Below the pieces are notes generated by a model that was not told the origin of the DNA, made no database searches, and saw only the letters and a program-made list of their open reading frames with translations. The position numbers were made by a program, and so were the translations under genes. This document shows, in pieces, positions 4,203-34,000 of a stretch of DNA of 46,582 bases. Source of the DNA: a virus; IMG/VR virus record IMGVR_UViG_3300032087_002512, positions 1 through 46,582 of that record; one strand, 5' to 3'. The stretch's first letter is position 1, and every line of letters starts with the position of its first letter.

Positions 4203-4744
4203 TATTTATACACCCATGGGAACTCTTGCTTCATCCACCCCGGCGCTTTCGCAGAGTCTTCCGCGTCTTCCACCCAAGCAAATCCCGCTGAATCATGGTC
4301 GGCTCGTCGAGCGCGTTCAAGATTGTAGTGGTAGTCGAATCCGTACTCTCCGAACTCGATGTCTTTGGGTGGGTCTTTGAAGAACTCTTGCACGTTGTCT
4401 GGGGTGACTCGAAGTGCAGATTCGTAGTCTCCGGTGTAATCATTGATAATGGCAGGGCACCACTGTCTTCCGACATCTCGACATGCAAGCAAGCGAGAGC
4501 CTCCGAACGTGAGGAAAAGCCCTTCAGGCAGAGACCACACCAGTATAGGGTTCCTGACCCCTTCTTGCTGTATAGACTCCGCAAGCGCGCTACGAAACCC
4601 CGGCTTAGAGGCTTTACTGATCTCTGGGAGCCAGTGCCAGCCATTGAGCGCCACGCTAGGACCCCCATAAGCAGGATTGCGGATAAGCCTACCACGGACA
4701 GAGCCCACGTCGATATGATCGTAGCGTATGTCATACCCGCTCAT
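4202..4744 (-). CDS. ParB/sulfiredoxin-like domain protein
   Basis: The 180-residue protein has a ParB-type nucleotide-binding core: the segment ALAESIQQEGVRNPILVW followed by LTFGGSRLLACRDVG corresponds to the ParB pattern in which a substrate-region loop is followed by a GxxR motif. I do not see the helix-turn-helix DNA-binding domain of true partition ParB proteins, so chromosome partition is unlikely. Free-standing domains of this family occur in phages next to methyltransferases and glycosyltransferases, which is also the context here. It overlaps the methyltransferase gene by 14 bases and the terminase gene by one base. The activity is unknown; CTPase or nuclease roles are known for relatives. 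Confidence 0.7.
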   Translation of the reverse strand: MSGYDIRYDHIDVGSVRGRLIRNPAYGGPSVALNGWHWLPEISKASKPGFRSALAESIQQEGVRNPILVWSLPEGLFLTFGGSRLLACRDVGRQWCPAIINDYTGDYESALRVTPDNVQEFFKDPPKDIEFGEYGFDYHYNLERARRADHDSAGFAWVEDAEDSAKAPGWMKQEFPWVYK

Positions 4745-5294
4745 GGATTAGCCAGCACCGGGGCTTAGGGCCCTTGTTCGATGCTTTCTCCCTGTGTGCG
4801 TACTCGCACTCCCATAAGGTACAATCCTCTTCGAACCGCTTACGCCACCAGATGGGCTCTTCCACGGTGAGGTGGAGGTCCTGTCCGATGTACGGCCCCT
4901 CGCCGAACGTCTTGAACGTCGGGGAGCATGCGATGTCGTTGCAGAGTGCATACTTGGTGAGCTTCTCGAGCTGCTCAATGGTCTCCGTGAGGAGATGAGG
5001 CTCAATATGCTCCAGTACGTCAGAGGTCATCACCATGTCGAACTGCCCCGTAGGGGGTGTGTCCTTGCCAGGGATGCCCGGATCATACTCGTAGAACTCT
5101 ACGTCAGGGAAGAACGGTTGCAGGAACTCTTTCATAGTGCCCTTACCGCAGCCGAAGTCCAGCACCGTCTTGATGTACGGGCGTGCCTCGAGGGCCTTCT
5201 TCATGAGGTCTCCAGCGTACCTGTAGCCGGTAGTGCCCCACTTGGAGCCATCATGCTCCTTGGCCATGTGTTCTTTGTATTCTGGCGTAATCAT
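4731..5294 (-). CDS. Class I SAM-dependent methyltransferase
   Basis: A 187-residue Rossmann-fold methyltransferase. Motif I is VLDFGCGKGTMKEF (about residues 43-56), the acidic residue ending strand 2 is in VEFYEYDPG, and the motif IV region is FDMVMTSDVLEHIEP, typical of the small-molecule/sugar type (PF13489-like) rather than DNA methylases, which would show DPPY or a similar motif. The start codon has a GGGGA site a few bases upstream. It lies in a trio with a glycosyltransferase-like gene upstream and a ParB-like gene downstream, all between terminase genes. The substrate is unknown. Confidence 0.85.
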   Translation of the reverse strand: MITPEYKEHMAKEHDGSKWGTTGYRYAGDLMKKALEARPYIKTVLDFGCGKGTMKEFLQPFFPDVEFYEYDPGIPGKDTPPTGQFDMVMTSDVLEHIEPHLLTETIEQLEKLTKYALCNDIACSPTFKTFGEGPYIGQDLHLTVEEPIWWRKRFEEDCTLWECEYAHREKASNKGPKPRCWLIHERV

Positions 5295-11207: not shown

Positions 11208-11453
11208 ATGTCATATACTATACATAGTGTCATTGGCTTTACAGAGAAGGCGTTTATCCTTCACACGTGTGAATTGACGGAGGTAAGTATGTCACACTTA
11301 AATAAGCTGGAACGGATCGAGCGCAAGCGCCGTAAACAGCAGAAACAGGAAGATTGGAAGGGCAACCGTAGCCCACAACCGTACAAGCGTACTGATGAGG
11401 AACTAGAGTGGGAGGAGGAGAATGAATCAGCAACTCGTACACAACGGGGATAG
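11208..11453 (+). CDS. Early hypothetical protein, very charged
   Basis: From ATG 11208 (GGAGGG just upstream) this encodes 81 residues. A second in-frame ATG at 11289 also has GGAGG five bases upstream and would give a 54-residue form that begins MSHLNKLERIERKRRKQQ. Palindrome site 6 lies between the two starts and is read as H-T-C-E in the long form. The shared part is highly charged (Lys/Arg then Glu) and probably an extended helix. Two good starts either side of a regulatory palindrome suggest that two products are possible. No family recognised. Confidence 0.6.
   Translation: MSYTIHSVIGFTEKAFILHTCELTEVSMSHLNKLERIERKRRKQQKQEDWKGNRSPQPYKRTDEELEWEEENESATRTQRG
11261..11272. promoter_or_regulatory. 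Dispersed palindrome TCACACGTGTGA, site 6
   Basis: Perfect copy with the 14-bp extension TTCACACGTGTGAA, lying six bases before the ribosome-binding site of the internal start at 11289. Confidence 0.8.
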
Positions 11454-12081
11454 CATAATACAGGCCCCAAATGCTAACATACATGGGATCTATCAGTGTT
11501 GCTCTGCGGCGCTACTTCATGGAGTCTCTGGGTACTGTACAACAGCAAGGTTTGCACCCAAGGACACAGTGCCGGGTGCGATGCGTACAATGGACCCCGC
11601 ACACTGTGGTTCTTTCGCAGAGTACAAGAAAGAACGTGCGCGTAGGCATCAGATGTTCGGGATGCCGTACGATCACGCCATGTGTGCTGTCCTTGAGATA
11701 CTGTACAACAAGGCCAAACACGGTGAGGGAGGCAGCAATATGTATGCGTCCTCAAGCTATGCCACTAAAACGTGGTTCATTGCTGATCGCCGACGTACCG
11801 AGGGCAGCGTGTCCTGTATGAACTTCATGCTCTGGTTACAAGAGCAGGGAGTACAACAAGTAGGACGCATCCACATCTCCCCATGGAGGGATGGTGCCCA
11901 CGGCGGTGAGTGCAAGGGTGGAGTGTATGCTCCAAACCTCACACGTGTGAAAGAACTGCTAGATCGCAAGCTAGCTGAACTAAACGCCCATGCTGATTGG
12001 GTATTCTTTGATTACTTTGGCCTACACCCGAAGCAGATGGGTGAGAACTACGTGGCCGATGAAGTGGGAGCACAATGGTGA
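11422..12081 (+). CDS. Hypothetical Cys-containing protein upstream of the peptide-ligase cluster
   Basis: A 219-residue protein beginning MNQQLVHNGDSIIQAP, preceded by a strong GGAGGAG site. It has nine cysteines and several His/Trp motifs (MDPAHCGSFAEYKKER, HISPWRDGAHGGECKGG, DWVFFDYFGLHP). No known domain was recognised. The spread of Cys and His could be a metal site or a thiol chemistry centre, but no spacing fits a named family. It lies just upstream of the cyclotransferase gene, so it may belong to the same pathway. Palindrome site 7 is inside it and encodes TRVK. Confidence 0.75.
   Translation: MNQQLVHNGDSIIQAPNANIHGIYQCCSAALLHGVSGYCTTARFAPKDTVPGAMRTMDPAHCGSFAEYKKERARRHQMFGMPYDHAMCAVLEILYNKAKHGEGGSNMYASSSYATKTWFIADRRRTEGSVSCMNFMLWLQEQGVQQVGRIHISPWRDGAHGGECKGGVYAPNLTRVKELLDRKLAELNAHADWVFFDYFGLHPKQMGENYVADEVGAQW
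11939..11950. promoter_or_regulatory. Dispersed palindrome TCACACGTGTGA, site 7
   Basis: Perfect copy inside the Cys-containing gene, read as T-R-V-K. Confidence 0.8.
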
Positions 12082-12103: not shown

Positions 12104-12541
12104 ATGAAGGCAGGTATACGAGTGTTTGTTTATGGCACTCTCAAAAAGGGTCATCCTCTACATATACTGTTAGAGCGTGGCAAGGAGGTTGAGTTCATTG
12201 GACGCAACTACATTAACGAGTCGATGCTTATGGTGGACATGGGCAATTATCCGGCCCTTGTTTGGGATGAGCTTAATCCTGATGATAGGCGTAAGCTTTT
12301 TGGTGAGGTGTACACTGTTGACCCTGAAACGCTTGCTAGTTTGGACTATGCGGAGGGACATCCCCATTACTACAAAAGACACAAGATCAGAACCGCTGAC
12401 GCAAAGTATCCGCGTAGGAAGTGCTGGACGTACATTCTTACAGCCGAAGCAGCAGACTATGCCGAGAATGTTATCGAGGACAGCGTCTGGAACCCCATCG
12501 AAGCGGAGCGAGCCTATGTCGAAAGCAACCTCAAAGGCTAA
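12104..12541 (+). CDS. Gamma-glutamylcyclotransferase-like (AIG2/GGCT) protein
   Basis: This 145-residue protein starts MKAGIRVFVYGTLKKGHPLH, the substrate-binding YGTLxxG signature of the GGCT/AIG2 fold. The segment FGEVYTVDPETLASLDYAEG supplies the conserved Glu in the LDxxEG stretch that acts as general acid/base in the family. GGCT enzymes cyclise gamma-glutamyl amines with release of the free amine. It leads the amidoligase cluster, matching its occurrence with such genes in phages, where it may trim or cleave gamma-glutamyl bonds. ATG 12104 was chosen for the family start; ATG 12092 is possible. Confidence 0.85.
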   Translation: MKAGIRVFVYGTLKKGHPLHILLERGKEVEFIGRNYINESMLMVDMGNYPALVWDELNPDDRRKLFGEVYTVDPETLASLDYAEGHPHYYKRHKIRTADAKYPRRKCWTYILTAEAADYAENVIEDSVWNPIEAERAYVESNLKG

Positions 12542-12857
12542 GCACTACTGGTTCCAAGCGGTGATTAACCGCAATGGGGTGATGATTACTCGACAGGGTG
12601 CTATGGCTGCTGACTACGCCTACGAGGTGAAGGACAACATCTTCGAGAGAGCCAAGACAGAGTGGAAGTTCCCAATCGAGAGTCTTGAGATTTACCTCAT
12701 GACCAAGGAAGGTGAGCTGGGCGAGCTGATTCTAACTACAAAAGGATTGGAAACCAAAACTGTCACACGTGTGAATACTCCTGACCCTAAACCGTGGGAG
12801 TATGGCACGTACTACTCAAAACGTAACTACCCAACCATTAAACTGGAGGATACCTAA
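12516..12857 (+). CDS. Hypothetical protein in the peptide-ligase cluster
   Basis: A 113-residue protein from ATG 12516, overlapping the cyclotransferase gene by 26 bases. It begins MSKATSKAKHYWFQAVINRN and has a mixed alpha/beta look with SLEIYLMTKEGELGELILTT. No motif recognised. Palindrome site 8 encodes TRVN within it. Its place between the cyclotransferase and the first amidoligase makes it a candidate accessory of that pathway. Confidence 0.7.
   Translation: MSKATSKAKHYWFQAVINRNGVMITRQGAMAADYAYEVKDNIFERAKTEWKFPIESLEIYLMTKEGELGELILTTKGLETKTVTRVNTPDPKPWEYGTYYSKRNYPTIKLEDT
12763..12774. promoter_or_regulatory. Dispersed palindrome TCACACGTGTGA, site 8
   Basis: Perfect copy inside the 113-residue gene, read as T-R-V-N; last of the dense group at 8.8-12.8 kb. 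Confidence 0.8.
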
Positions 12858-13706
12858 ATGGAAAAGATTCCATGCAACCCATCTGTCGGCGCAGATGTTG
12901 AATACCTGCTCATGAACATGGAGACTCGTGAGATCGAACCTGCGTGTGGCCTCATTGGCGGCACAAAGGAGGACCCCTTACTTCTCGAGTCTCCTCGTGG
13001 TGGCGGCTACGCGATACAAGAGGACAACGTGATGGTGGAGTGGAACATCCCTGCGGCAGAGTCGTGGGATGTGCTCTACAACAACATCCTGCACGCCAAG
13101 GACTTGGTGAATGACCACGTACAGTTAGCCGTAGGCCCGGAATACAGGGCGGTCTGTCAGCAAGAGCATCACTTCACTCCGCTTCAGCTAGACTCGGAGC
13201 AAGCGCGTACCTTCGGGTGCGAGCCTGACTTCGATGCCTACCTCGGTGGAGTACAACGGCAGGATGGTGCAGCGGCTACTATCGGTAACTGGCGCACCTG
13301 CGGAGGGCACATACACATCGGTGGTGACTTCCAATGCCCTGACTTTGTTGCTGCTCTATTCTGTGAGCTGTACATCTCAGTGTTCGGGCGCGCCCCGATT
13401 GACTACAGTACACAGAGAGCTAAATGGTACGGGAAGCCGGGGATCTTCCGGCCTAAGCCGTATGGAATCGAGTACCGTACACCGGACAATATGTGGACGG
13501 ATAACCCAAACCATATTGAGCTGGTAGGGCAGTACGCTATACTGTGTGCCCAGTACCTGACCAACACCTCAGCGGATGAGCTACAGTCTACATTCCGCAA
13601 GATACCGTGGGTGCAGATCCGTGGGTACCTCGATGGTACCAAGCGTACTAGCACCACTCGCTCTCACATCATCCGCGCTTGCCGCAATGCAGGAGTCAAC
13701 GCATGA
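12858..13706 (+). CDS. Amidoligase, phiEco32-like COOH-NH2 ligase type 2
   Basis: A 282-residue protein of the glutamine synthetase/amidoligase fold. It has the acidic Mg/ATP motif GADVEYLL near the N-terminus (about residues 11-18), the second motif GGHIHIGGDF (about residues 150-159) and the arginine motif GIEYRTPDNMW (about 205). This order is that of the phage phiEco32-like COOH-NH2 ligases (PF14395). Such enzymes form amide bonds between a carboxylate and an amine using ATP. GGAGG precedes the start by nine bases. The substrate is unknown; peptide tags on proteins or cell-wall peptides have been proposed for the family. Confidence 0.85.
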   Translation: MEKIPCNPSVGADVEYLLMNMETREIEPACGLIGGTKEDPLLLESPRGGGYAIQEDNVMVEWNIPAAESWDVLYNNILHAKDLVNDHVQLAVGPEYRAVCQQEHHFTPLQLDSEQARTFGCEPDFDAYLGGVQRQDGAAATIGNWRTCGGHIHIGGDFQCPDFVAALFCELYISVFGRAPIDYSTQRAKWYGKPGIFRPKPYGIEYRTPDNMWTDNPNHIELVGQYAILCAQYLTNTSADELQSTFRKIPWVQIRGYLDGTKRTSTTRSHIIRACRNAGVNA

Positions 13707-14311
13707 TTAACGTAGATAAGGTTCCCGCTCGTGACTGGAACCTGTACTTCGGTGGAGTGTATATGCAATACAGGGGTACACTTGCATATGTGCGCCCCTA
13801 TGCCTATCAGGACCCAGAGGAAGGGAGGACGCGCACTACACTCCGAGTACAACGAGAGGGGATGAAGGACAAGTTCCTCTGGCGCAAGGGTGACCTCAAG
13901 GAGCTGCTGGTGTGGTGGCCTCGTGCTGGGGCCTACAACATCAGAGGCTCGGCGGTGTACGTGGCACGTAAGGCAACTCGGTCAATGAAGAAGTCCTGTT
14001 GCCCAGACTCTCACTACTACGTGAAGTGGGGAGCGCAGGGGATGAGTCCGGCGCGGTACTTGACCCTGAAGAACCACCACTTCGATACATGGGAGGCCGC
14101 GAAGCAAGCCATAGACAATGGCAAGCACGCTAGGGCACTGTCCCGTAACCTGATCGTGGCCAACTCGGCTGCGAAAGGGGTGTACCAACTGGTCTACCGA
14201 GGTGATGAGGTAGGTACACTGGAGGGGAGTGATTACCACCCACTGAATGAGCTATCACCACTTACAAAGCTGGTGTATCAAGAACTAATAGAGGAGGGAG
14301 TTGTATGCTAA
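13703..14311 (+). CDS. Unknown protein between the two amidoligases
   Basis: A 202-residue protein from ATG 13703 overlapping the previous stop (ATGA) and the next start by seven bases, so it is tightly part of the operon. It starts MINVDKVPARDWNLYFGG and is rich in Tyr, Trp and Arg, with a CC pair (KKSCCPDSHYYVKW) and a helical stretch HFDTWEAAKQAIDNGKHAR. No known domain was recognised. Because it is locked between two ligases, it is a good candidate for a dedicated partner or acceptor of the reaction; this is inference. Confidence 0.75.
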   Translation: MINVDKVPARDWNLYFGGVYMQYRGTLAYVRPYAYQDPEEGRTRTTLRVQREGMKDKFLWRKGDLKELLVWWPRAGAYNIRGSAVYVARKATRSMKKSCCPDSHYYVKWGAQGMSPARYLTLKNHHFDTWEAAKQAIDNGKHARALSRNLIVANSAAKGVYQLVYRGDEVGTLEGSDYHPLNELSPLTKLVYQELIEEGVVC

Positions 14312-15234
14312 ACTGGGACCAGCAAATAGGTCCGATGCTTGGTCTACGTATGCGGTACCCCGAGCTACGGCTTGGGATTGAGCTAGAGTACGAGCGCTAT
14401 CATGGGGACTTCCCAGAGCTAGCGTGGTGGAGTTGTGAACGTGATGCGTCCCTACGGAACGGAGGGGTTGAGTACATTAGCAATCCCCTGCTGCCCGAGG
14501 ATCTCGACGAAGCACTGGACGAGGTACAAGAGTCCATTGACGATAATCAACTCGAGGCCTCGTGGCGGTGCGGAGGGCACACCCACGTGAACGCAATGTA
14601 CTGGACGTTCAAAGAGCTACTCACGTACACTACGCTGTATGCTCTGGTTGAGCCGTATATATTCGGGAACTTTGCTCCGGGTAGGGAGTCTAACCACTTC
14701 TGCGTACCCTTGTGGAGTAACCACCAACTGATTGACAGGCTAGCCCACGATGCGGTGAGGCTGCGCGCTAAGAAGGGAATGGCGCACTCGCTACAGTTGC
14801 TTGGGTGCAACAAGTACTCTGCGCTGAACTTCAAGCCCCTCAAGGTGCTGGGCACAATAGAGTTCAGGCATATACCGAGTACAACGAACATGGCTGTCAT
14901 ACAGAACTGGTGTGCGTTCCTGATGCGTAGTGTGGCGTATGCCAAGACGTTCAGGGACCCAGAGTCGGTAGTTGCGGCATATGAGGACAACGGCATAGAG
15001 AATATGCTGGAGAACCTCGGCCTTCACACGTGTGAGATTGACAGGGAGACTACCAAGGATGCGTACATCGCGGCCAACATGGTGGTAGGACACGACCCGC
15101 GCAAGTGGCAGGACTTGGACTGGACTATGCCAGAACCATTGGAGTGGAGGGATGAATTGCTCGACATCCTAGCGATAGAAGAAGAGTTTGAAATAGAAGA
15201 TTACCACCCAGACTTAGATGAGGAGAGAATGTAA
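14305..15234 (+). CDS. Amidoligase, second COOH-NH2 ligase (Amidoligase_2-like)
   Basis: A 309-residue protein with the amidoligase motifs in order: LGIELEYERY (about residues 19-28), GGHTHVNAMYW (about 90-100) and GTIEFRHIPSTTN (about 188-200). The ExE and HxH plus E-x-R pattern matches the putative amidoligase family (PF12224) and differs from the first ligase, so two different amide bonds or successive steps are likely. The C-terminal 60 residues are acidic. Palindrome site 9 lies inside, encoding HTCE. GGAGG stands upstream of the start. Confidence 0.85.
   Translation: MLNWDQQIGPMLGLRMRYPELRLGIELEYERYHGDFPELAWWSCERDASLRNGGVEYISNPLLPEDLDEALDEVQESIDDNQLEASWRCGGHTHVNAMYWTFKELLTYTTLYALVEPYIFGNFAPGRESNHFCVPLWSNHQLIDRLAHDAVRLRAKKGMAHSLQLLGCNKYSALNFKPLKVLGTIEFRHIPSTTNMAVIQNWCAFLMRSVAYAKTFRDPESVVAAYEDNGIENMLENLGLHTCEIDRETTKDAYIAANMVVGHDPRKWQDLDWTMPEPLEWRDELLDILAIEEEFEIEDYHPDLDEERM
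15024..15035. promoter_or_regulatory. Dispersed palindrome TCACACGTGTGA, site 9
   Basis: Perfect copy inside the second amidoligase gene, read as H-T-C-E. Confidence 0.8.
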
Positions 15235-15235
15235 T

Positions 15236-16684
15236 ATGTGCGGAATAGTAGGATACATTTCAATGAAGGACAGCGACCATGTCCATGCTAAGCGACACTT
15301 CAGTGATTACGCGCTTATGCTTGATACGTTGCGTGGTAACGATTCCACAGGGATCATACGTGTGAACAACGACTTTGATGTTCATACAAACCACACGACC
15401 ATGTCAGGGCGTAAGTACGTTCACTCTGTCGCTTACGACTCGTGGATGGCTGAGCGGGATAGCTGGGCGTTCATCGGGCACAACCGGGCAGCGACTGCCG
15501 GATCAGTGAAGCTCGAGAACGCCCACCCGTTCACATTCGGTGACGTGACGATGGTACATAACGGTACATTGTGGCAGGGCGGCAAGTCCATGCCGGGGTA
15601 CGACCCCAAGCTAGAAGTGGACTCAATGCAGATAGCCCGAGCCCTGTCAGAGACAGACTGTGACGCTGCTGCGGTGTCCAAGCTCTTTGAGAAGATAGAC
15701 GGGAGCTTCTGTCTGGTGTGGGTAGATCGACGGGATGGGTCAGTGAACATGGCTCGTAACTCGTCACGGCCCTTACACTTCGCGTACAACCGCGCCAAGA
15801 ACCTGATGTGGTTCATGTCCGACGGTACACACCTTCATGCAATTTCACGGTCTATGGAGAAGTCCTCGGGTGCGATAGATACTATCTACCAGATGGACAA
15901 GCAGAAGATCCTGAAGTTCAAGAAGGGAAACATGGTACCGGAGGTTACTGGCTTCGTCCCTTTCGTTCGACCCGCAGTCACTTACAATACAGCCACCAAA
16001 GTGGACAGTGGGAAAGCCCTCGCGGTAGCAACACAAAGGTGGCAGGACAACATACGGAAGGCAAATGGGGCACACTCTACGGAGACTGGCACAGATTCTG
16101 GAACTAAGGCCATGATTAACGGCCACCGCCGGATTGTGCCCAAGAATCACATAGATGTGCTGGGCCAGTACTTCGACGTAGATGGGGACACCATACTGAG
16201 GTTCGAGCCGGAGACATGGATGGAGATGGCCAACAAGCAATGTGTTGTGACCGGGCTGTTCTCCCATCCAAAGTGGGGGGACTCAGTGTGGCCAATGACC
16301 CTGTACAACGTACCCCTGGTGATAGTGAACGCTTACTGTGACTATGCGTGGGGTGTGAAGGCTAAAGGAGTAACATCCTGTGGGTCTGACTTCGAGTACG
16401 GGTCGGTGGTGTCCATGCTAGGTGAGCTGTACTGCTACGACTGGCGTACAATATCGCCTGACGAGCAAACTCACACGTGTGAAGAAGAGGTTGAGGAGCT
16501 GGTGGTAGGGCCTGATGAGACTCTGATGGACAAGACAGAGTGTATGCAGTTGATAGCGAAAGGGTGCATACAATGTAACGGAATCATATCGTGGGAGGAT
16601 AGGTCATTCTCCACCATAGTGAACGAAGGTCGGGATGTGCTCTGTCCGGGGTGCTCCGATGAATGGAAGAGGGAGGTAGTATGA
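15236..16684 (+). CDS. Class II glutamine amidotransferase with C-terminal zinc ribbon
   Basis: A 482-residue protein starting MCGIVGYIS, with Cys2 as the N-terminal nucleophile after Met removal, then RGNDSTG, HNRAATAGSVKLENAHPF, HNGTL and EVDS, all hallmarks of Ntn-type GATase II domains (residues 2 to about 230). These release ammonia from glutamine. No synthase domain of the GlmS, PurF or AsnB kind follows. Instead about 170 unassigned residues lead to a C-terminal pair of CxxC motifs (CIQCNG and CPGCSD), a probable zinc ribbon. AGGAGAG precedes ATG 15236 by nine bases. It likely supplies ammonia to, or transfers glutamine-derived groups for, the ligases next to it. Confidence 0.88.
   Translation: MCGIVGYISMKDSDHVHAKRHFSDYALMLDTLRGNDSTGIIRVNNDFDVHTNHTTMSGRKYVHSVAYDSWMAERDSWAFIGHNRAATAGSVKLENAHPFTFGDVTMVHNGTLWQGGKSMPGYDPKLEVDSMQIARALSETDCDAAAVSKLFEKIDGSFCLVWVDRRDGSVNMARNSSRPLHFAYNRAKNLMWFMSDGTHLHAISRSMEKSSGAIDTIYQMDKQKILKFKKGNMVPEVTGFVPFVRPAVTYNTATKVDSGKALAVATQRWQDNIRKANGAHSTETGTDSGTKAMINGHRRIVPKNHIDVLGQYFDVDGDTILRFEPETWMEMANKQCVVTGLFSHPKWGDSVWPMTLYNVPLVIVNAYCDYAWGVKAKGVTSCGSDFEYGSVVSMLGELYCYDWRTISPDEQTHTCEEEVEELVVGPDETLMDKTECMQLIAKGCIQCNGIISWEDRSFSTIVNEGRDVLCPGCSDEWKREVV
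15354..15365. promoter_or_regulatory. One-mismatch variant of the dispersed palindrome
   Basis: TCATACGTGTGA differs from the 12-bp palindrome at one base (T for C). It lies inside the glutamine amidotransferase gene and is read as I-R-V-N, the same frame as most coding copies. It may be a decayed or weak site. Confidence 0.4.
16471..16482. promoter_or_regulatory. Dispersed palindrome TCACACGTGTGA, site 10
   Basis: Perfect copy inside the glutamine amidotransferase gene, read as H-T-C-E. Confidence 0.8.
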
Positions 16685-17475
16685 AGATTAGGTTTGAGCC
16701 ATACAAGCTCAAGTCAAAGAGCTGTCGTGCCATTGCGGATCACCTTGGAGTACTCCGCACTACTCCTAGGCAGGTCCGTAGGCATGGTGACTTTGACGTA
16801 ATCATTAACTGGGGCTCATCTCAGAGGAGGTTCCCAAATGCAAGATACATCAACGATCCAGAAGCCGTGGAACACGCTAGTGATAAGAAAGCCTCTTTTA
16901 AGGTTTTCAAGTGTAGTGGAGTACCATGCCCTGATTGGACAACTGATGCGGCTGTCGCATCTCAGTGGAGAGAAGATGGGCTGGTCATTGTTGCGCGAGT
17001 GCTTCTACGTGCAAACCAAGGACGAGGCATTGTTATTAGTAGTATCGGAAATGGCATCCCGCTCCCGGCTGCGCCACTCTATACTGTGTACAATAAGAAG
17101 GCCGAGGAGTACAGAGTTCACGTCATGGCGGGAGAGGTTATCGACGTGGCTCAGAAGAAAAAGAAGAGGGAGGTAGATAATGAAGAAGTCGATTACCAAA
17201 TACGTAGTTATGATAATGGCTGGGTGTTCTGCCGTGATGGAGTGGACTGTCCTCAGCCTGTACGTGATGCTGCTGTTGCCGCTGTCAGTTGTCTTGGTCT
17301 TGATTTTGGGGCTGTTGATGTTGGCTGGAACCTTAAGCGAGAGTCTGCATTCGTATTTGAGGTCAACACGGCTCCGGGTATTGAGGGGACTACACTCGAG
17401 CGATACAACGAAGGACTGCGAGCTTTACTGCCAGCACTCAGAACTGGACGCTATGCAACGAGGAGAGCACAATGA
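16681..17475 (+). CDS. ATP-grasp ligase
   Basis: A 264-residue ATP-grasp enzyme. The ATP-binding loop lies around residues 110-120 (RANQGRGIVIS), a middle motif is YRVHVMAGEVIDVAQKKKKR, and the metal-binding end is LDFGAVDVGWN followed by FVFEVNTAPGIEG, where the E-x-N residues bind magnesium. Such enzymes (RimK or D-Ala-D-Ala ligase type) make peptide-like bonds through an acyl phosphate. Its ATG overlaps the stop of the amidotransferase gene as ATGA. With the two amidoligases it gives three ATP-dependent amide-forming enzymes in one operon. The substrate is unknown. Confidence 0.88.
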   Translation: MKIRFEPYKLKSKSCRAIADHLGVLRTTPRQVRRHGDFDVIINWGSSQRRFPNARYINDPEAVEHASDKKASFKVFKCSGVPCPDWTTDAAVASQWREDGLVIVARVLLRANQGRGIVISSIGNGIPLPAAPLYTVYNKKAEEYRVHVMAGEVIDVAQKKKKREVDNEEVDYQIRSYDNGWVFCRDGVDCPQPVRDAAVAAVSCLGLDFGAVDVGWNLKRESAFVFEVNTAPGIEGTTLERYNEGLRALLPALRTGRYATRRAQ

Positions 17476-21300: not shown

Positions 21301-21898
21301 TAAGTATGAAGCGTTTACCACACCGGAAGGTGAAGCTGTATTCCCATGGATCACGAAAGCTGACACCGAGCATGACGCTGCGGGTATCTACCATGTTGAC
21401 CTGAGTGTGCCCTTCGAGGCAGCCCAGGACTTCATTGCAAAGCTTGAGCGCATCCGTGATGAGTTTGTAGCTACACTCCCGGTGGCCAAGCAGAACGCGC
21501 TTGCGAAGAAGCCTGTCTATATGGACGAACTCACGCGGCCCGACTATCCAGAGGGCGCGTCGAAGGAAGAGCGGACAGCCATTCGTAATGCGTGGGCAGG
21601 TGAACCCACCGGCAACGTGATCTTCCGCATCAAGCAGAAGGCGAAGGTTACAACGCAGGAAGGTGTCACGTTCGAGCAAGCTCCAGTTGTGGTCAGTGCT
21701 GACACAGGTGAGAAGATCGAACAGCCAGTGTACGGGGGCAGCATCCTACGTGTACGTGGGCAGGTTGTACCATACACCAACGCTGCGGCAGGTATTGCAG
21801 GGGTCACCTTGCGGATGAAAGCAGTACAGGTCATTGATCTCGTGACGGGTGGAGGAAGTGATTCCTTCTGGACCGACTTCGAAGAAGACGCAGCTTAA
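21293..21898 (+). CDS. Single-stranded DNA-binding protein (gp2.5-like)
   Basis: A 201-residue protein resembling the T7 gp2.5 type of ssDNA-binding protein found in podoviruses. It has a beta-rich OB-like core (AGIYHVDLSVPFEAAQDF, NVIFRIKQKAKVTTQ, GGSILRVRGQVVPYTN) and an acidic C-terminal tail (DSFWTDFEEDAA) with an aromatic residue near the end, typical of recruiting the polymerase and helicase. It lies between the sigma gene and the DNA polymerase gene. AAGGAG stands eight bases before ATG. Its stop overlaps the polymerase start. Confidence 0.85.
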   Translation: MSNKYEAFTTPEGEAVFPWITKADTEHDAAGIYHVDLSVPFEAAQDFIAKLERIRDEFVATLPVAKQNALAKKPVYMDELTRPDYPEGASKEERTAIRNAWAGEPTGNVIFRIKQKAKVTTQEGVTFEQAPVVVSADTGEKIEQPVYGGSILRVRGQVVPYTNAAAGIAGVTLRMKAVQVIDLVTGGGSDSFWTDFEEDAA

Positions 21899-23850
21899 TG
21901 ACTAGGGGGCTACGGGGTCTGCCACAACACGTGGCGGCCCCTGATCCTTCCCTCTACATGGGAGATGATTATGTTGTCGTTGACTTTGAAACAACCACTC
22001 ACCTCAAAGGAACTCCGGTCAGTGATGATAATAGAATCGTCCTTGCCGTGTGGAAGAGAGGTAAAGATACAACCAGCCGTGGAACGGCACTACTTCTCGG
22101 GGAGACCGATAATGTCCCCAGCGGAAGTGATGATTCCATGCGACACTGTTTCGGAGGCGAGTACGATCTTAGCGATCTTGTCAGAGACATTGGACAAGCA
22201 TCTTTCGTGGTCGCACATAACGCTAAGTTTGAACTCGGATGGCTCAGGCGATGCGGACTCGACCTCAGAGACGTAGTTGTATACGACACACAGATCGGTG
22301 ATTATGTACGGGGAGGCAACAGGTACCCACTACAACAGCTCAGCCTCAACAAGACAGCGGAGAGGTACGGGCTAGGACAGAAGCAGGACATTATAGGTAA
22401 GATGTGGGCACACGATATCGAGACTCCAGACATACCGGAGTCGTGGTTGTTACGGTACTGCATTAAGGACGTAGAGCTATGCGAGAGCATCTTCCTCAAA
22501 CAGAGGGAGATACTTAAACATCGTAATCTGCTGCCGGTGCTGTACCAAAGATGCCTAGTTACGCCAATGCTCGCGGACCTCGAACGTCGGGGGATGCAAC
22601 TAGACGAGGACAAAGTTAATGAACTTATGGCAACGATGGAAGATGAGTATGCTGCGAAGACGGCTGAACTCCAAGAGTTTGCTGGAGGTGTCCCACCTGC
22701 TAGCGTTAAGCAGAAACGAGAGTATATTTATGGAGTACTTGGGTTCAAAGCTCCCGTGGATTACAGAAACAAGCCTATCCTCACTCCTTCGGGTGACTTC
22801 TCAGTATCAGCGGACGCTCTTGCTAGACTTCGACCAAAGACTCAAAAGCAACGAGAGTATCTACGTCTCCATGAAGAGTGGGCCAATCTCCACGCCGATG
22901 TCACTAAGTACCTCAGAAAGTTTAGAGAGTGCTGCAACGAGACTGGTGGAGTGCTACACGCAGCATTTAACCAATGTAGTACACGCACACATCGACTCTC
23001 TAGTAATGGAGTCACCTACAAGGTTCAGTTCCAGAATCTTAACCGAAGGTTCAAGCCACTTTTTCGTTCACGTAACGATGGCTGGTATCTCGGGGAGGCC
23101 GATGGTGCACAGCTCGAGTTCAGAGTTGCAGCACACCTTGGACGTGACCGAGTGGCGCTTGGCGACATCTGGAGAGGGGTTGATATCCACGCTTTCACAG
23201 CAGGGATTATCGGCTGCACGAGACAGGAGGCTAAGGCACACACCTTCAAGCCTCTGTATGGTGGTAAGTCCGGCACTCCTGAGCAGAAGCGGTATTACAG
23301 CGCTTTTGAGAAGAAGTATTCGGGAGTATCTGGCACACAACGTGAATGGGTGCATGGGGTACTACGTACCAAGAACCTCAAGACAGAGTGGGGACTGACG
23401 TACTACTGGCCATCGACCAAGATGACAGAGAGTGGGTACATCACCAACACCACGTCCATTTGCAACTATCCAGTACAGGCGTTAGCGACTGCGGAAATCA
23501 TTCCGAGTGCAATGGTCTGCGCGTGGCATAGGATGCGAGACATGCAGTCGTTCCTTGTGAACACAGTACATGACTCGATCATCGCAGAGATACACCCGGA
23601 CGAGGCTGAACTGTGGCACGAGATAGCGAAGCAATGTTTGATTCACGATGCGTACATGATGATGGTGAATCTGTACGGCCTACACCTCACCGTACCCCTC
23701 GGGGCTGGTGTGATGATGGGTACACATTGGGGATCGAAAGACGAAGTGAAGTACGAGGCACCGGAAGAGCTATGGCTCCCGGCTGCACGCAAAGAGGAGA
23801 TGGTAGATGAAGACATGGACTGGCAAGGTAATCAAGAAGTTCCATCGTGA
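21898..23850 (+). CDS. DNA polymerase, family A, with 3'-5' exonuclease
   Basis: A 650-residue T7-type polymerase. Exonuclease motifs: YVVVDFETTTHL (Exo I), HNAKFELGWL (Exo II) and YCIKDVELCE (Exo III). Polymerase motifs: EADGAQLEFRVAAH (motif A), KAHTFKPLYGGKSGT (motif B) and NTVHDSIIAE (motif C, with the catalytic Asp). Both activities look intact. It replicates the genome with the helicase, primase and SSB of the same operon. The start ATG overlaps the SSB stop as TAATG; the first 25 residues are non-conserved, so a later start is possible. Confidence 0.95.
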   Translation: MTRGLRGLPQHVAAPDPSLYMGDDYVVVDFETTTHLKGTPVSDDNRIVLAVWKRGKDTTSRGTALLLGETDNVPSGSDDSMRHCFGGEYDLSDLVRDIGQASFVVAHNAKFELGWLRRCGLDLRDVVVYDTQIGDYVRGGNRYPLQQLSLNKTAERYGLGQKQDIIGKMWAHDIETPDIPESWLLRYCIKDVELCESIFLKQREILKHRNLLPVLYQRCLVTPMLADLERRGMQLDEDKVNELMATMEDEYAAKTAELQEFAGGVPPASVKQKREYIYGVLGFKAPVDYRNKPILTPSGDFSVSADALARLRPKTQKQREYLRLHEEWANLHADVTKYLRKFRECCNETGGVLHAAFNQCSTRTHRLSSNGVTYKVQFQNLNRRFKPLFRSRNDGWYLGEADGAQLEFRVAAHLGRDRVALGDIWRGVDIHAFTAGIIGCTRQEAKAHTFKPLYGGKSGTPEQKRYYSAFEKKYSGVSGTQREWVHGVLRTKNLKTEWGLTYYWPSTKMTESGYITNTTSICNYPVQALATAEIIPSAMVCAWHRMRDMQSFLVNTVHDSIIAEIHPDEAELWHEIAKQCLIHDAYMMMVNLYGLHLTVPLGAGVMMGTHWGSKDEVKYEAPEELWLPAARKEEMVDEDMDWQGNQEVPS

Positions 23851-30344: not shown

Positions 30345-30766
30345 TGCTTGTCCACCTCCCTGTTAAACACTCTAGCTGTGACTACTCTTGCAGTCTCTTC
30401 AGACTTACAGCGTGTCGTAGGTGCTAGGTGGTCCAATATGTAGTGCACGGTCTCGTGCATTTCTATCTGTTCGTGAGCGATTAGCCATCTGCTGGAGTTG
30501 ATGTATATAGTTGCTGTGTCTGGGTAGTATACTCCAAGGTTGTTCCCCTGTAGTATGAAGGGGTCCTTCGTGTACACCGCGACAGGTGGTGGCAGCTTAG
30601 AGCAGTCGAGACGAAGCTCCAAGCAAGCGGTCTCGAATATGGTGGGAGGGGGAGGCTCTGATACTGCTGCCGATCCAATGAGCAGCGTGGCTCCTACAAC
30701 TATGAGTATTCTATGAAGTATTCCTTTGGTAATGGTTTCCGTCCTCCCATGCTCCACCCCACTCAT
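30308..30766 (-). CDS. Secreted zincin-type metallopeptidase candidate
   Basis: A 152-residue protein with an N-terminal hydrophobic stretch LIVVGATLLIGSAAVSE (about residues 20-37) preceded by basic residues, a likely signal peptide or signal anchor, and the zinc-binding HExxH motif as HETVH in AHEQIEMHETVHYILDHL (about residues 96-113). Four cysteines could form periplasmic disulfides. It lies in the lysis region between an M15 peptidase and two small genes, and its start overlaps the M15 gene by 56 bases. Envelope degradation or spanin-like support at lysis is likely; the start has no clear ribosome-binding site. Confidence 0.65.
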   Translation of the reverse strand: MSGVEHGRTETITKGILHRILIVVGATLLIGSAAVSEPPPPTIFETACLELRLDCSKLPPPVAVYTKDPFILQGNNLGVYYPDTATIYINSSRWLIAHEQIEMHETVHYILDHLAPTTRCKSEETARVVTARVFNREVDKQWRVRYQCPRAL

Positions 30767-31052
30767 TCTGCTCGTCTAGGGATTCCCAGAACGCTCCAAG
30801 CTCTACGTGGTCATCAGTCCTGCCCAAATACTCTCCATCCTTGAAGAGATTCAGGTCTACGGCTAGTCGTCTCTTGTGTTCACTGTTCGCTGACGCATAG
30901 CTCAGCTTCTCCCCGTACTTACCATGTACCCGAGGGTCACGGTACGCATCCCCGAAGGTAACGGAGTACCCACGGGAGTCTGCGAAGAGGATCAGCAGAG
31001 CTATGTGCTTTGCAAATATCTGTTGTTGTCTACTCAGGCTCAACTTTCTCAC
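30711..31052 (-). CDS. Endolysin-like M15 peptidase (VanY/L-Ala-D-Glu type)
   Basis: A 113-residue protein of the M15 peptidase family: SVTFGDAYRDPRVHG, the zinc motif SEHKRRLAVDLNLF (S-x-H-x6-D), and the C-terminal GNHYQ with the second metal histidine. Such enzymes cut peptide bonds in peptidoglycan stem peptides. No secretion signal is seen, so it would pass the membrane through the holin. The start is uncertain: GTG 31052 overlaps the end of the large internal-virion gene by 23 bases; TTG 31043 is an alternative. Confidence 0.8.
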   Translation of the reverse strand: MRKLSLSRQQQIFAKHIALLILFADSRGYSVTFGDAYRDPRVHGKYGEKLSYASANSEHKRRLAVDLNLFKDGEYLGRTDDHVELGAFWESLDEQNEWGGAWEDGNHYQRNTS

Positions 31053-34000
31053 TCTGTAGCTCGTCGCTAACGCTCTGTAACCATTCGTTAAACTCGAGGC
31101 CCTTCTGGTATACGTCCTCTGGCATCTCTCCTGCACCGTCCCAGCCTGTACCCGGAAGGATACCTGCACGAACCAGAGCAGCGATGCCCGGACGTGACCG
31201 TGAAGGTACTCCTGCTGCTAGGGTTAGATGACGGAGCTTCTCTGGGTCTGCTACTGCCTCGACAGCTTTCTTAGAGTGCCACCGCAGTCTGATCCAGTTA
31301 CTAGCAGAGACACGGCGCTGCCATACGTTCAGCGGCCCCATGAGCGTACGGGATGTACGGATCACGTCGCCCTGTAGCTCTGGCGTTGCGGCCCCAATGC
31401 GGAACCTCTGTGTGTCAAGGTGCAGTCCCCGCCACGTGTTCTTCAGGTCAGTGACGTACTGGTCACCGTGAAGAGCGCGTAGAGCATGCTCGTGCTCGTC
31501 GATGTATTTCTTGAAGGAATCAGCAGACTTAGCTGGGTTCTGTGACGCTGTGTCACTGAAGAACCTCTCGTTAATCATGCGCTTATTCTCCACGAGGGAC
31601 TCGATCCGTACCTGCTCAGCGAGCTGGGGGTCCATGCGCTTAAGCTCTCTCATGTATGTCATGGTACGCTTACGCGGATTACCTGTCTTACCAATCTCCG
31701 TGAGGCTCTCTACCATCTTACCCGGCGTGAGCGTACCGAACTGCTCTAGCCTGTTCATGGCCGAGCGTGACGCAGCAGCACGATCAGCAAGGATGTTCCT
31801 GCCTTCCTTAGTAAAGTTAGTAGCAGCGAACTCAGCCATATCTCCTTCGCTGAACACAGACCTCAGTGACGTACTGTAGTTACGGAGGAACGTATGGTGC
31901 TTGGCAGCGGTGAAGCCCGTGCCACCTAGTACGCTGTCAGTGTACAAGGACATGAGTGCTTCTCGCACGTGCATCTGCCCACTTGGGTTAGAGTTCATCC
32001 ATGGAGAGATGTGCTGTAGGAACTTGCTGCCGTTCCTGAGTGCGTTACCCATCTCCTTGAGTTCGATGTTGATGTACTGGCCATCACGGTTCTTAGCGAA
32101 CAGAGGATTGGATGTAACAGCGGACTCGGCGTGCCGTAGGATGTCAGTGGTCTCATTGAGACGTTCCCACGTACCACGCAGAGCGGTGCCAGTGCCCTCG
32201 TCTACCGCGTTGCCGAAGTTGTCTAGTATCTTGCCGTTCTTCATCATGTCCTCGACTGTATCCAGCATCAGGCCCACCTCTGGGTCCTTGGTGCGCTCGT
32301 AGAGTGCGCGCAAGGAGTCCCGTGAACGACCAAGGTGCCCGATGTCGAGCGTATCGTTCGTGAGTCCTTCAATGATAGGGTACCCGTCCTCGTCTACCTG
32401 CTTGCGGAACACCTGTCCCAGCGTGCGGTCAGCCGCAGACGCATCCATACCTGTAAGGGAGCGCTCTATGCGTGCTTCCAGTTGCTTAGCCATACGGTTG
32501 AGCTTGGACGTGCGGGGGTTAGCTATGCTATAGATACTCTTCTGACGATCAGCCTGCCAGCCTATCTGTGACTGCCACTTGACTCCCCAGAACTCAGCGT
32601 GTGCCTTTCCGTTAGCTACGTAGGCAAGGTCATCGTCCAGCGTGTCTGCTACTCGTGCAGCAGAGTACTCCGCAGAGTCCGCAGCTAGCGGTACCCGCAT
32701 CATCTTGCCGGGGATATGTGTGATCTCGTAGACGGGCTCAAGTGCTGGGCCACGGGTCCAAAGTACGTCACCGTCCCTCTCCGTGTACACACCGTCGTTC
32801 ATCTTGATGCCGAAGCCTTCTTTCTCGAGCCGCGCTGCCATAGCCATGCTGTACTGCGAGAGCTGGTTGTCAGACACCCACCTGTAGTCTGAGGGTATGT
32901 CACCAAGGTCCTTCATCATGCGGTCCATCATGATAGCTGCACCACCGGGGAATGACTCGTCCTCTCCAACATACTTGATGGTGACGGTCTTCGCGCCGTG
33001 ATCTACGCGCACGTCGGCACCTGAACCTACACCAGTGAGGTCGTTCTGGAAGCCCTGCTGTAGCTCATCTGTGGGCTTGCCAAGGCCCTTCATGTTTACC
33101 GAGTCGCTTCCTTGGTTCCACTTCCACGTGTATACCTCTACTGCACCATAGGTATCATTGTAGGAACCGACCTTAACACTTATGTCAGATGCGGCATCAC
33201 CTTTGGCTGTGAGCTGTGACTCTACCTTGGCGGCAGTCTGGTGGGGCGAGGATACTACATTGGTAGGCAGACGGTTGTTGTGGATGTTGTCCACAGCGTC
33301 AGACAGGGCAGCACGGTTCGTGTCCCTGCGTATGTTGATCTTCGTCTGCTCTGCTGCTGTAAGCCTAGCCTCACGCCCCTTCTGTGTAGCGATCTCCTCG
33401 AGAGAGCCAGAGGCCTCTGCCTTCGTGGTGGTGAAGGGCTTATCGGTGAGCTTCTGTACTTCCTCAAGAGTGTCTGCTGCTTCGTCTAGGTTGCTGCGTA
33501 CTTCCTGCTCCGCTGCTGCCGCTGCCTCATCATCCGTCATTCCTTTCTTACGGAACTGCTGTAGGTCTACATCAACGTCACTCTTCGTTGCTCTCTGTCC
33601 TGTCAGGCGGCCCAGCACACGGCTGAATGCCGTACCCGTAGCGGACTCACCGAAGTTGTCGGACTTGTCTAGCGCATCCGCAACGTCCTGTAGAGTAGTA
33701 TCACCCCCGAGAGCCTCAGCGTCGAGCAAGCCCTCAAGTACGATGCCAGTGTTACGCCAGCCGAAGTCACCCACAAACTCAGCGATTGCTGGGTGCTTTG
33801 TTGCGAACCTGTTGGCCACCCTAGCAGCTCCGCCACCTGTAATCTGAGAGAGCGTGGCACCTGTCATGGCGAACAGCTCCTCGATGTCAGCTACACCACC
33901 TAGGTCTTGTGGTCTGAAGAACTCTGGATCAACCAGTACTCGCTTGACCTTACCATCCTCTGTGGGCACCAGAGCTTCAAGCTGTCCGATGTCCTCATTG

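Follow-up and report, generated by a model that had tools for sequence, protein, structure and literature searches.

A divergent phiEco32/LUZ24-type amidoligase module in an IMG/VR virus record and its possible gamma-glutamyl chemistry

The virus record IMGVR_UViG_3300032087_002512, a single record that supplies the whole window of 46,582 bases analysed here, carries at positions 12104-17475 an intact, divergent new member of the known phiEco32/LUZ24-type amidoligase module. Seven head-to-tail genes on the + strand, with intergenic gaps of -17 to +1 bases, form one operon that encodes a gamma-glutamyl cyclotransferase (GGCT), the product of a small open reading frame (ORF), a COOH-NH2 ligase (AL1), a conserved protein located between the two ligases (MID), a second ligase of the Amidoligase_2 family (AL2), a class II glutamine amidotransferase (GAT), and a RimK-like ATP-grasp ligase (GRASP). 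The mechanism best supported for these proteins is an ATP-dependent amide ligation that proceeds in steps and involves a transient gamma-glutamyl group. The broader proposal, in which a phage pathway complete in itself turns common metabolites (glutamate, glutamine or other amino acids, and ATP) into an amide-linked, glutamate-derived product, is given about an even chance of being right.

Conservation of the module

An initial annotation of the window proposed a complete phiEco32-type ligase module. This is supported; the order AL1-MID-AL2-GAT-GRASP and the nearby primase/helicase gene are present as well. Loci were collected from six GenBank phages and from two scans of IMG/VR, with AL1 and GRASP as baits (AL2, GAT, and MID were not used as baits); 125 without shared sequence were kept, 90 of them untruncated. 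Within these 90, AL1 is found in 87, MID in 73, and GGCT in 45. Because AL2, GAT, and GRASP are each present in 89 of the 90 untruncated viral loci, the co-occurrence of the module genes is far beyond chance. A primase/helicase gene lies close to the module in most loci.

The present analysis adds MID as a core component of the module. It occupies the space separating AL1 from AL2 in 78 of the 79 loci in which this gap is 400-800 bp; in rearranged loci, where the order is AL1-GAT-AL2, no MID was detected. In the named phages it is annotated as hypothetical. The protein evolves fast, having zero invariant residues and an aligned identity to the window copy of 11-30%. Its AlphaFold model is confident (pLDDT 91) but matches no PDB structure convincingly; an assignment by fold was rejected as too weak (best Foldseek E-value 0.085; VIA Z of 4.6 or less to CarD/Mfd RNA-polymerase-interacting and Tudor-like small barrels).

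Related modules and distribution

The phiEco32/LUZ24 amidoligase module was reportedly described by Iyer et al. in 2009, and its gene list is also given in the UFV-P2 paper (PMC3890496). The novelty implied by the initial annotation was consequently overstated: the module already has a name in the literature, and AL1 is encoded in more than 300 GenBank phages (about 316). Some 300-316 of 50,697 phage records match the AL1, AL2, or GRASP proteins, all at less than 60% identity; none of the 50,697 is a near DNA match, and a single-sequence search of IMG/VR returned no close relatives. Carriers include LUZ24-like, PA11-like, Gordonclarkvirinae (phiEco32), Vibrio, Aeromonas, Proteus, Rhizobium, and Klebsiella phages, among others.

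The modules of LUZ24 (gp16-gp22) and phiEco32 (gp86-gp77) share with the window the enzyme families, the core order AL1-MID-AL2-GAT-ATP-grasp, and a position upstream of the primase/helicase gene. However, the window proteins have only about 16-34% aligned identity to theirs, GGCT lies upstream of AL1 in the window but downstream of the ATP-grasp gene in LUZ24/phiEco32, and the extra genes found there between GAT and ATP-grasp are missing from the window. (In LUZ24, locus L002 of the survey, a small DUF7195 gene at 11444-11665 separates the two.)

A scan of 84,980 bacterial and archaeal genomes with the AL1 profile, which relies on short conserved patterns and so misses distant relatives, gave nine contigs of about 5-77 kb, all from metagenome-assembled genomes or bins. 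Seven of the nine hold most of a phage-like module and two hold little except AL1; a bacterial operon able to reveal the pathway was sought in these genomes and not found. With more than 300 viral matches set against nine such contigs, the module is essentially confined to viruses. The virus of the window is itself a divergent phage, probably podovirus-like, judging from its portal (928-2868, - strand), which resembles that of phage SU10 (PF23899, 3e-24), and its DNA polymerase A (21898-23850, + strand), whose nearest relatives are in Vibrio breoganii phages, StenR_269, and VpV262.

Enzyme families and active sites

All five enzyme families named in the initial annotation are placed by Pfam or PHROGs profile searches (Table 1), including the ligases starting at 12858 and 14305, both of which pass the Pfam cut-offs for amidoligase families. 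The five enzymes therefore stand, but the gene list had omitted the 113-amino-acid ORF and MID, and it had misplaced the start of GAT. This start is ATG 15236 (MCGIVGY), not 15218, which makes Cys2 the N-terminal nucleophile. The start of GRASP is likewise corrected, to 16681.

Table 1. Genes of the amidoligase module in the window
Gene	Product	Positions	Strand	Profile match or remark
GGCT	gamma-glutamyl cyclotransferase (GGCT/AIG2, PF06094)	12104..12541	+	PF06094 (GGACT) E 6e-22; phrog_2520 3e-16
Small ORF	113 amino acids	12516..12857	+	overlaps end of GGCT
AL1	COOH-NH2 ligase type 2 (PF14395)	12858..13706	+	PF14395 7e-8, 32.4 bits (cut-off 25); phrog_3815 7e-39
MID	conserved protein between both ligases	13703..14311	+	phrog_11055 2e-8
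AL2	Amidoligase_2 (PF12224)	14305..15234	+	PF12224 3e-10, 40.7 bits (cut-off 22); phrog_7469 5e-37
GAT	class II (Ntn) glutamine amidotransferase	15236..16684	+	PF13522 (GATase_6) 2e-11; phrog_4736 8e-49
GRASP	RimK-like ATP-grasp ligase	16681..17475	+	phrog_2599 1e-64

The catalytic motifs had been described as intact, and an active-site check against 60-122 homologues confirmed this: all catalytic positions across the cluster are present, and they are conserved in 0.93-1.00 of the homologues. In GGCT (for which ATG 12092 is an alternative start) Y10-G11, D81, and the catalytic E84 have a conservation of 0.95-1.00 among 60 homologues. Conservation reaches 0.99-1.00 for D13, E15, D56, E61, H151, H153, R198, E205, and R207 of AL1 (113 homologues), for E26, E28, E56, H92, H94, E186, and R188 of AL2 (117 homologues), and for K69, R145, K159, D213, E227, and N229 of GRASP (122 homologues). 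GAT conserves C2, R84, H108-N109-G110, and D129; its structural model matches the ammonia-donating PurF (Z 24.7) and GlmS (Z 23.9) as well as EgtC (Z 22.1), and its C-terminal region, which is unassigned, ends in CxxC...CxxC, a zinc-ribbon-like tail. By family membership AL1 has a glutamine-synthetase-like fold; when the profiles of AL1 and AL2 were compared, the two were not convincingly related (probability 3%). The closest solved structures to GRASP are those of RimK (5zct and 4iwx, E 1e-9). Against the profile PF18299 of R2K, a clade of ATP-grasp ligases (PMC4431377), GRASP scores 18.6 bits, under the cut-off of 26.2. Longer variants of the module genes contain no additional recognisable domain. 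The 113-amino-acid ORF gave no match in Pfam and PHROG searches, and its best other phmmer match, in the near relative L008, is marginal (E 0.054).

Evidence for gamma-glutamyl chemistry

Insight into the chemistry comes from the genes next to the module. Clustering of the neighbours identified one hydrolase family that adjoins the module in 76 of the 125 loci. This protein (hereafter C26) has the class I amidotransferase fold (Pfam Peptidase_C26, 4e-18) with an invariant Cys/His/Glu triad, and its nearest characterised PDB relative is PuuD (6vtv, 5e-9). Of the 73 untruncated loci in which MID occurs, GGCT alone is present in 26, C26 alone in 39, and the two together in 8; none is without either. 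GGCT and C26 belong to unrelated families, but both cleave gamma-glutamyl bonds, and both act on gamma-L-glutamyl compounds. In addition, those carboxylate-amine ligases with the glutamine-synthetase fold that have been characterised activate the gamma-carboxylate of glutamate. The GGCT/C26 pattern is thus suggestive of gamma-glutamyl-amide chemistry, to which the rule for glutamine-synthetase-fold ligases and the EgtC-like fold of GAT also point.

In the C26 version of the module, seen in Sinorhizobium phage phiM6 and in IMG/VR loci L025, L033, and L075, the core genes are as in the window and the PuuD-like hydrolase usually replaces GGCT; phiM6 has both, whereas the window has GGCT only. The PuuA/PuuD, EgtA/EgtC, and BtrJ/BtrG pairs share one logic, in which a gamma-glutamyl group attached by a ligase is taken off again by a hydrolase or cyclotransferase. 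The module may follow it: the window has GGCT, many relatives have the PuuD-like C26, and AL1 and AL2 are predicted to be specific for glutamyl groups. Unlike these pairs, the module has three ligases of two folds together with MID, and it has no recognised oxidative or tailoring enzymes.

According to the mechanism proposed here, AL1 and AL2, both ligases of the glutamine-synthetase type, would each use ATP to activate a carboxylate, most likely the gamma-carboxylate of glutamate, and couple it to an amine, while the RimK-like ATP-grasp enzyme would attach a further amino acid via a carboxyl group. GAT would either supply ammonia from glutamine or, in the manner of EgtC, remove a gamma-glutamyl group. 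GGCT (or C26 in other phages) would cut the gamma-glutamyl bond of what may be a protecting or activating glutamyl cap, and MID, perhaps along with the zinc-ribbon-like tail of GAT, may keep the enzymes or the acceptor together. Since replication-type genes are the only other neighbour families besides C26 that recur widely, the substrates should be ordinary metabolites.

Several points weigh against this proposal. The literature searched yielded neither a structure nor an assay for any of the module enzymes. Because a search of PDB sequences detected no relative of AL1, its glutamyl specificity is predicted from its fold family. Finally, the replacement of GGCT by C26 was rejected as statistical proof: Fisher's test that ignores phylogeny gives p 4e-7, but a phylogeny-aware test is not significant, with only 4-6 supported independent pairs. 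(It should be noted that the latter test is underpowered, because a tree of AL1, AL2, and GRASP shows only about 5 changes in the GGCT trait and 9 in the C26 trait.)

Nature of the acceptor

The acceptor would most likely be a cytoplasmic peptide, protein, or small molecule rather than the bases of phage DNA, with the candidates ranking in about the order protein or peptide, small molecule, cell wall. The initial annotation had suggested a cell-wall or protein target, possibly directed against superinfection, an idea already published in 2009 and for which the literature searched yielded no test. Its cell-wall part is neither supported nor excluded, and no sequence feature favours the cell wall over other acceptors. 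In one specific version the module would carry out a phage-borne non-ribosomal peptide conjugation, in which the three ATP-dependent ligases, of two different folds, work one after another on a single protein acceptor presented by MID, a gamma-glutamyl cap is added and later removed, and a host or phage protein is re-programmed in middle infection; this remains a speculative scheme, improbable as a whole. Middle timing is seen in PaP3, a LUZ24-like relative, whose ORF32-48 are expressed as middle genes together with replication; by homology these ORFs include the module, within which PaP3p44 and p47 lie (ORF placement via PMC3890496).

A diffusible gamma-glutamyl amide or oligopeptide, comparable to those of the butirosin, ergothioneine, or putrescine pathways, might instead inhibit a host enzyme or neutralise a defence signal. 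The combination of three ligases with gamma-glutamyl-cleaving enzymes fits the protecting-group logic of the BtrJ/BtrG, EgtA/EgtC, and PuuA/PuuD pathways, and the close matches by structure or by sequence include EgtC and PuuD. Yet no recognised oxidase, pyridoxal phosphate enzyme, transporter, or tailoring enzyme recurs among the neighbours, and MID, which lacks a recognisable enzyme fold, would be left unexplained; a small-molecule product is rather improbable. Slightly less probable is a change to the stem peptide of cytoplasmic peptidoglycan precursors, such as amidation or an extra amino acid, that blocks superinfection or prepares lysis. In bacteria peptidoglycan is indeed a target of ATP-grasp and amidotransferase enzymes (MurT/GatD and D-Ala-D-Ala ligase), and the stem peptide contains a gamma-D-glutamyl bond, but the compounds handled by GGCT and C26 are of the gamma-L-glutamyl kind. 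In addition, GRASP is closer to RimK than to Ddl, the PaP3 module falls in the middle rather than the late expression class, and the neighbour families that could be identified, only a part of the total, include no recurrent family of cell-wall enzymes. PMC10580990 credits the cell-wall proposal to Iyer et al. 2009, and PMC11945000 repeats it. Elsewhere in the window, positions 30711-31169 (- strand) encode an M15-type (VanY-like) peptidase, a possible endolysin, with an E-value of 7e-5 that is slightly under the Pfam cut-off.

Hypermodification of DNA, in which the ligases would decorate phage bases via amide bonds and so protect them against restriction, was attractive given the restriction-modification resistance of Gordonclarkvirinae, which has been reported with no known reason. 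Amide ligation on phage DNA has been demonstrated for CmoX/CmoY (PMC12783734), where CmoY acts on 5-carboxymethylcytosine, and the frequent proximity of the primase/helicase gene would also fit. The module resembles the CmoA-CmoX-CmoY system in being a phage-encoded, ATP-dependent amide ligation system, but CmoY is AsnB-like, and CmoA and a C5 methylase are absent here: neither TIGR00740 (CmoA) nor PF00145 (C5 methylase) has a match in the window record, which may be a fragment, or in 27 other module-bearing records. Over all 28 of these records, C5 methylase and CmoA are each found in 0 and the thymidylate synthase family in 2. Furthermore, Rembedalsseter has the whole module, and its native and amplified DNA are reported to differ in nanopore signal only in association with nicks (PMC11780129); among other module-bearing phages, U17 DNA is cut by 11 of 16 enzymes, and tf DNA is cut by RsaI, HpaI, EcoRV, SmaI, and HaeIII. 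On the strength of the nanopore data, the digests, and the near-absence of these handle enzyme families, hypermodification was set aside as very improbable, and DNA is unlikely to be the general target of the module. The restriction resistance of Gordonclarkvirinae may be unrelated to it. The resistance is reported although Bas90, a carrier of the whole module, has 13 EcoRI and 35 EcoRV sites; in Bas90 (L177) and phiEco32 (L007), despite the reported resistance, EcoRV sites number 35-36 against 11-13 for a reversed-pattern control.

The window shows no enrichment of the single-strand nick motif known from LUZ24-like phages. Beside the large terminase gene lies a gene for a Methyltransf_23 protein (4734-5294, - strand; E 2e-11), adjoined by one for a weakly ParB_N-like protein (4205-4744, - strand); ParB-domain proteins accompany CmoX too (PMC12783734). 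GAT ends in a C-terminal His, often following Ile, Val, or Leu, in 23 of the 89 untruncated loci with GAT, compared with 1 of 387 other module proteins. This residue, for which both His codons are used, shows at least 12 changes on the tree; examples are L008 (10393-11928), L031 (10998-12560), and L041 (10807-12285), while the window GAT ends in REVV. The His has been gained repeatedly and could conceivably mark a processing or acceptor site. A LysW-like amino-group carrier was considered in the form of a small protein that has a zinc ribbon and an acidic tail, encoded near the module in about 20 IMG/VR loci (e.g. L125, 8870-9079), and was rejected; its C-terminus is not conserved.

Significance

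The initial annotation had called the product of the cluster unknown, and indeed what the module makes is not stated in any paper found in the literature searched. To the published description the present analysis adds MID as a neglected core protein and the prediction of gamma-glutamyl chemistry, and it lowers DNA modification in rank. The module occurs in about 316 of 50,697 phage records, including those of LUZ24-like phages of interest for therapy, and in diverse viruses, but hardly ever in anything other than a virus; its cultured, laboratory-grown carriers include LUZ24, phiEco32, and Bas90.

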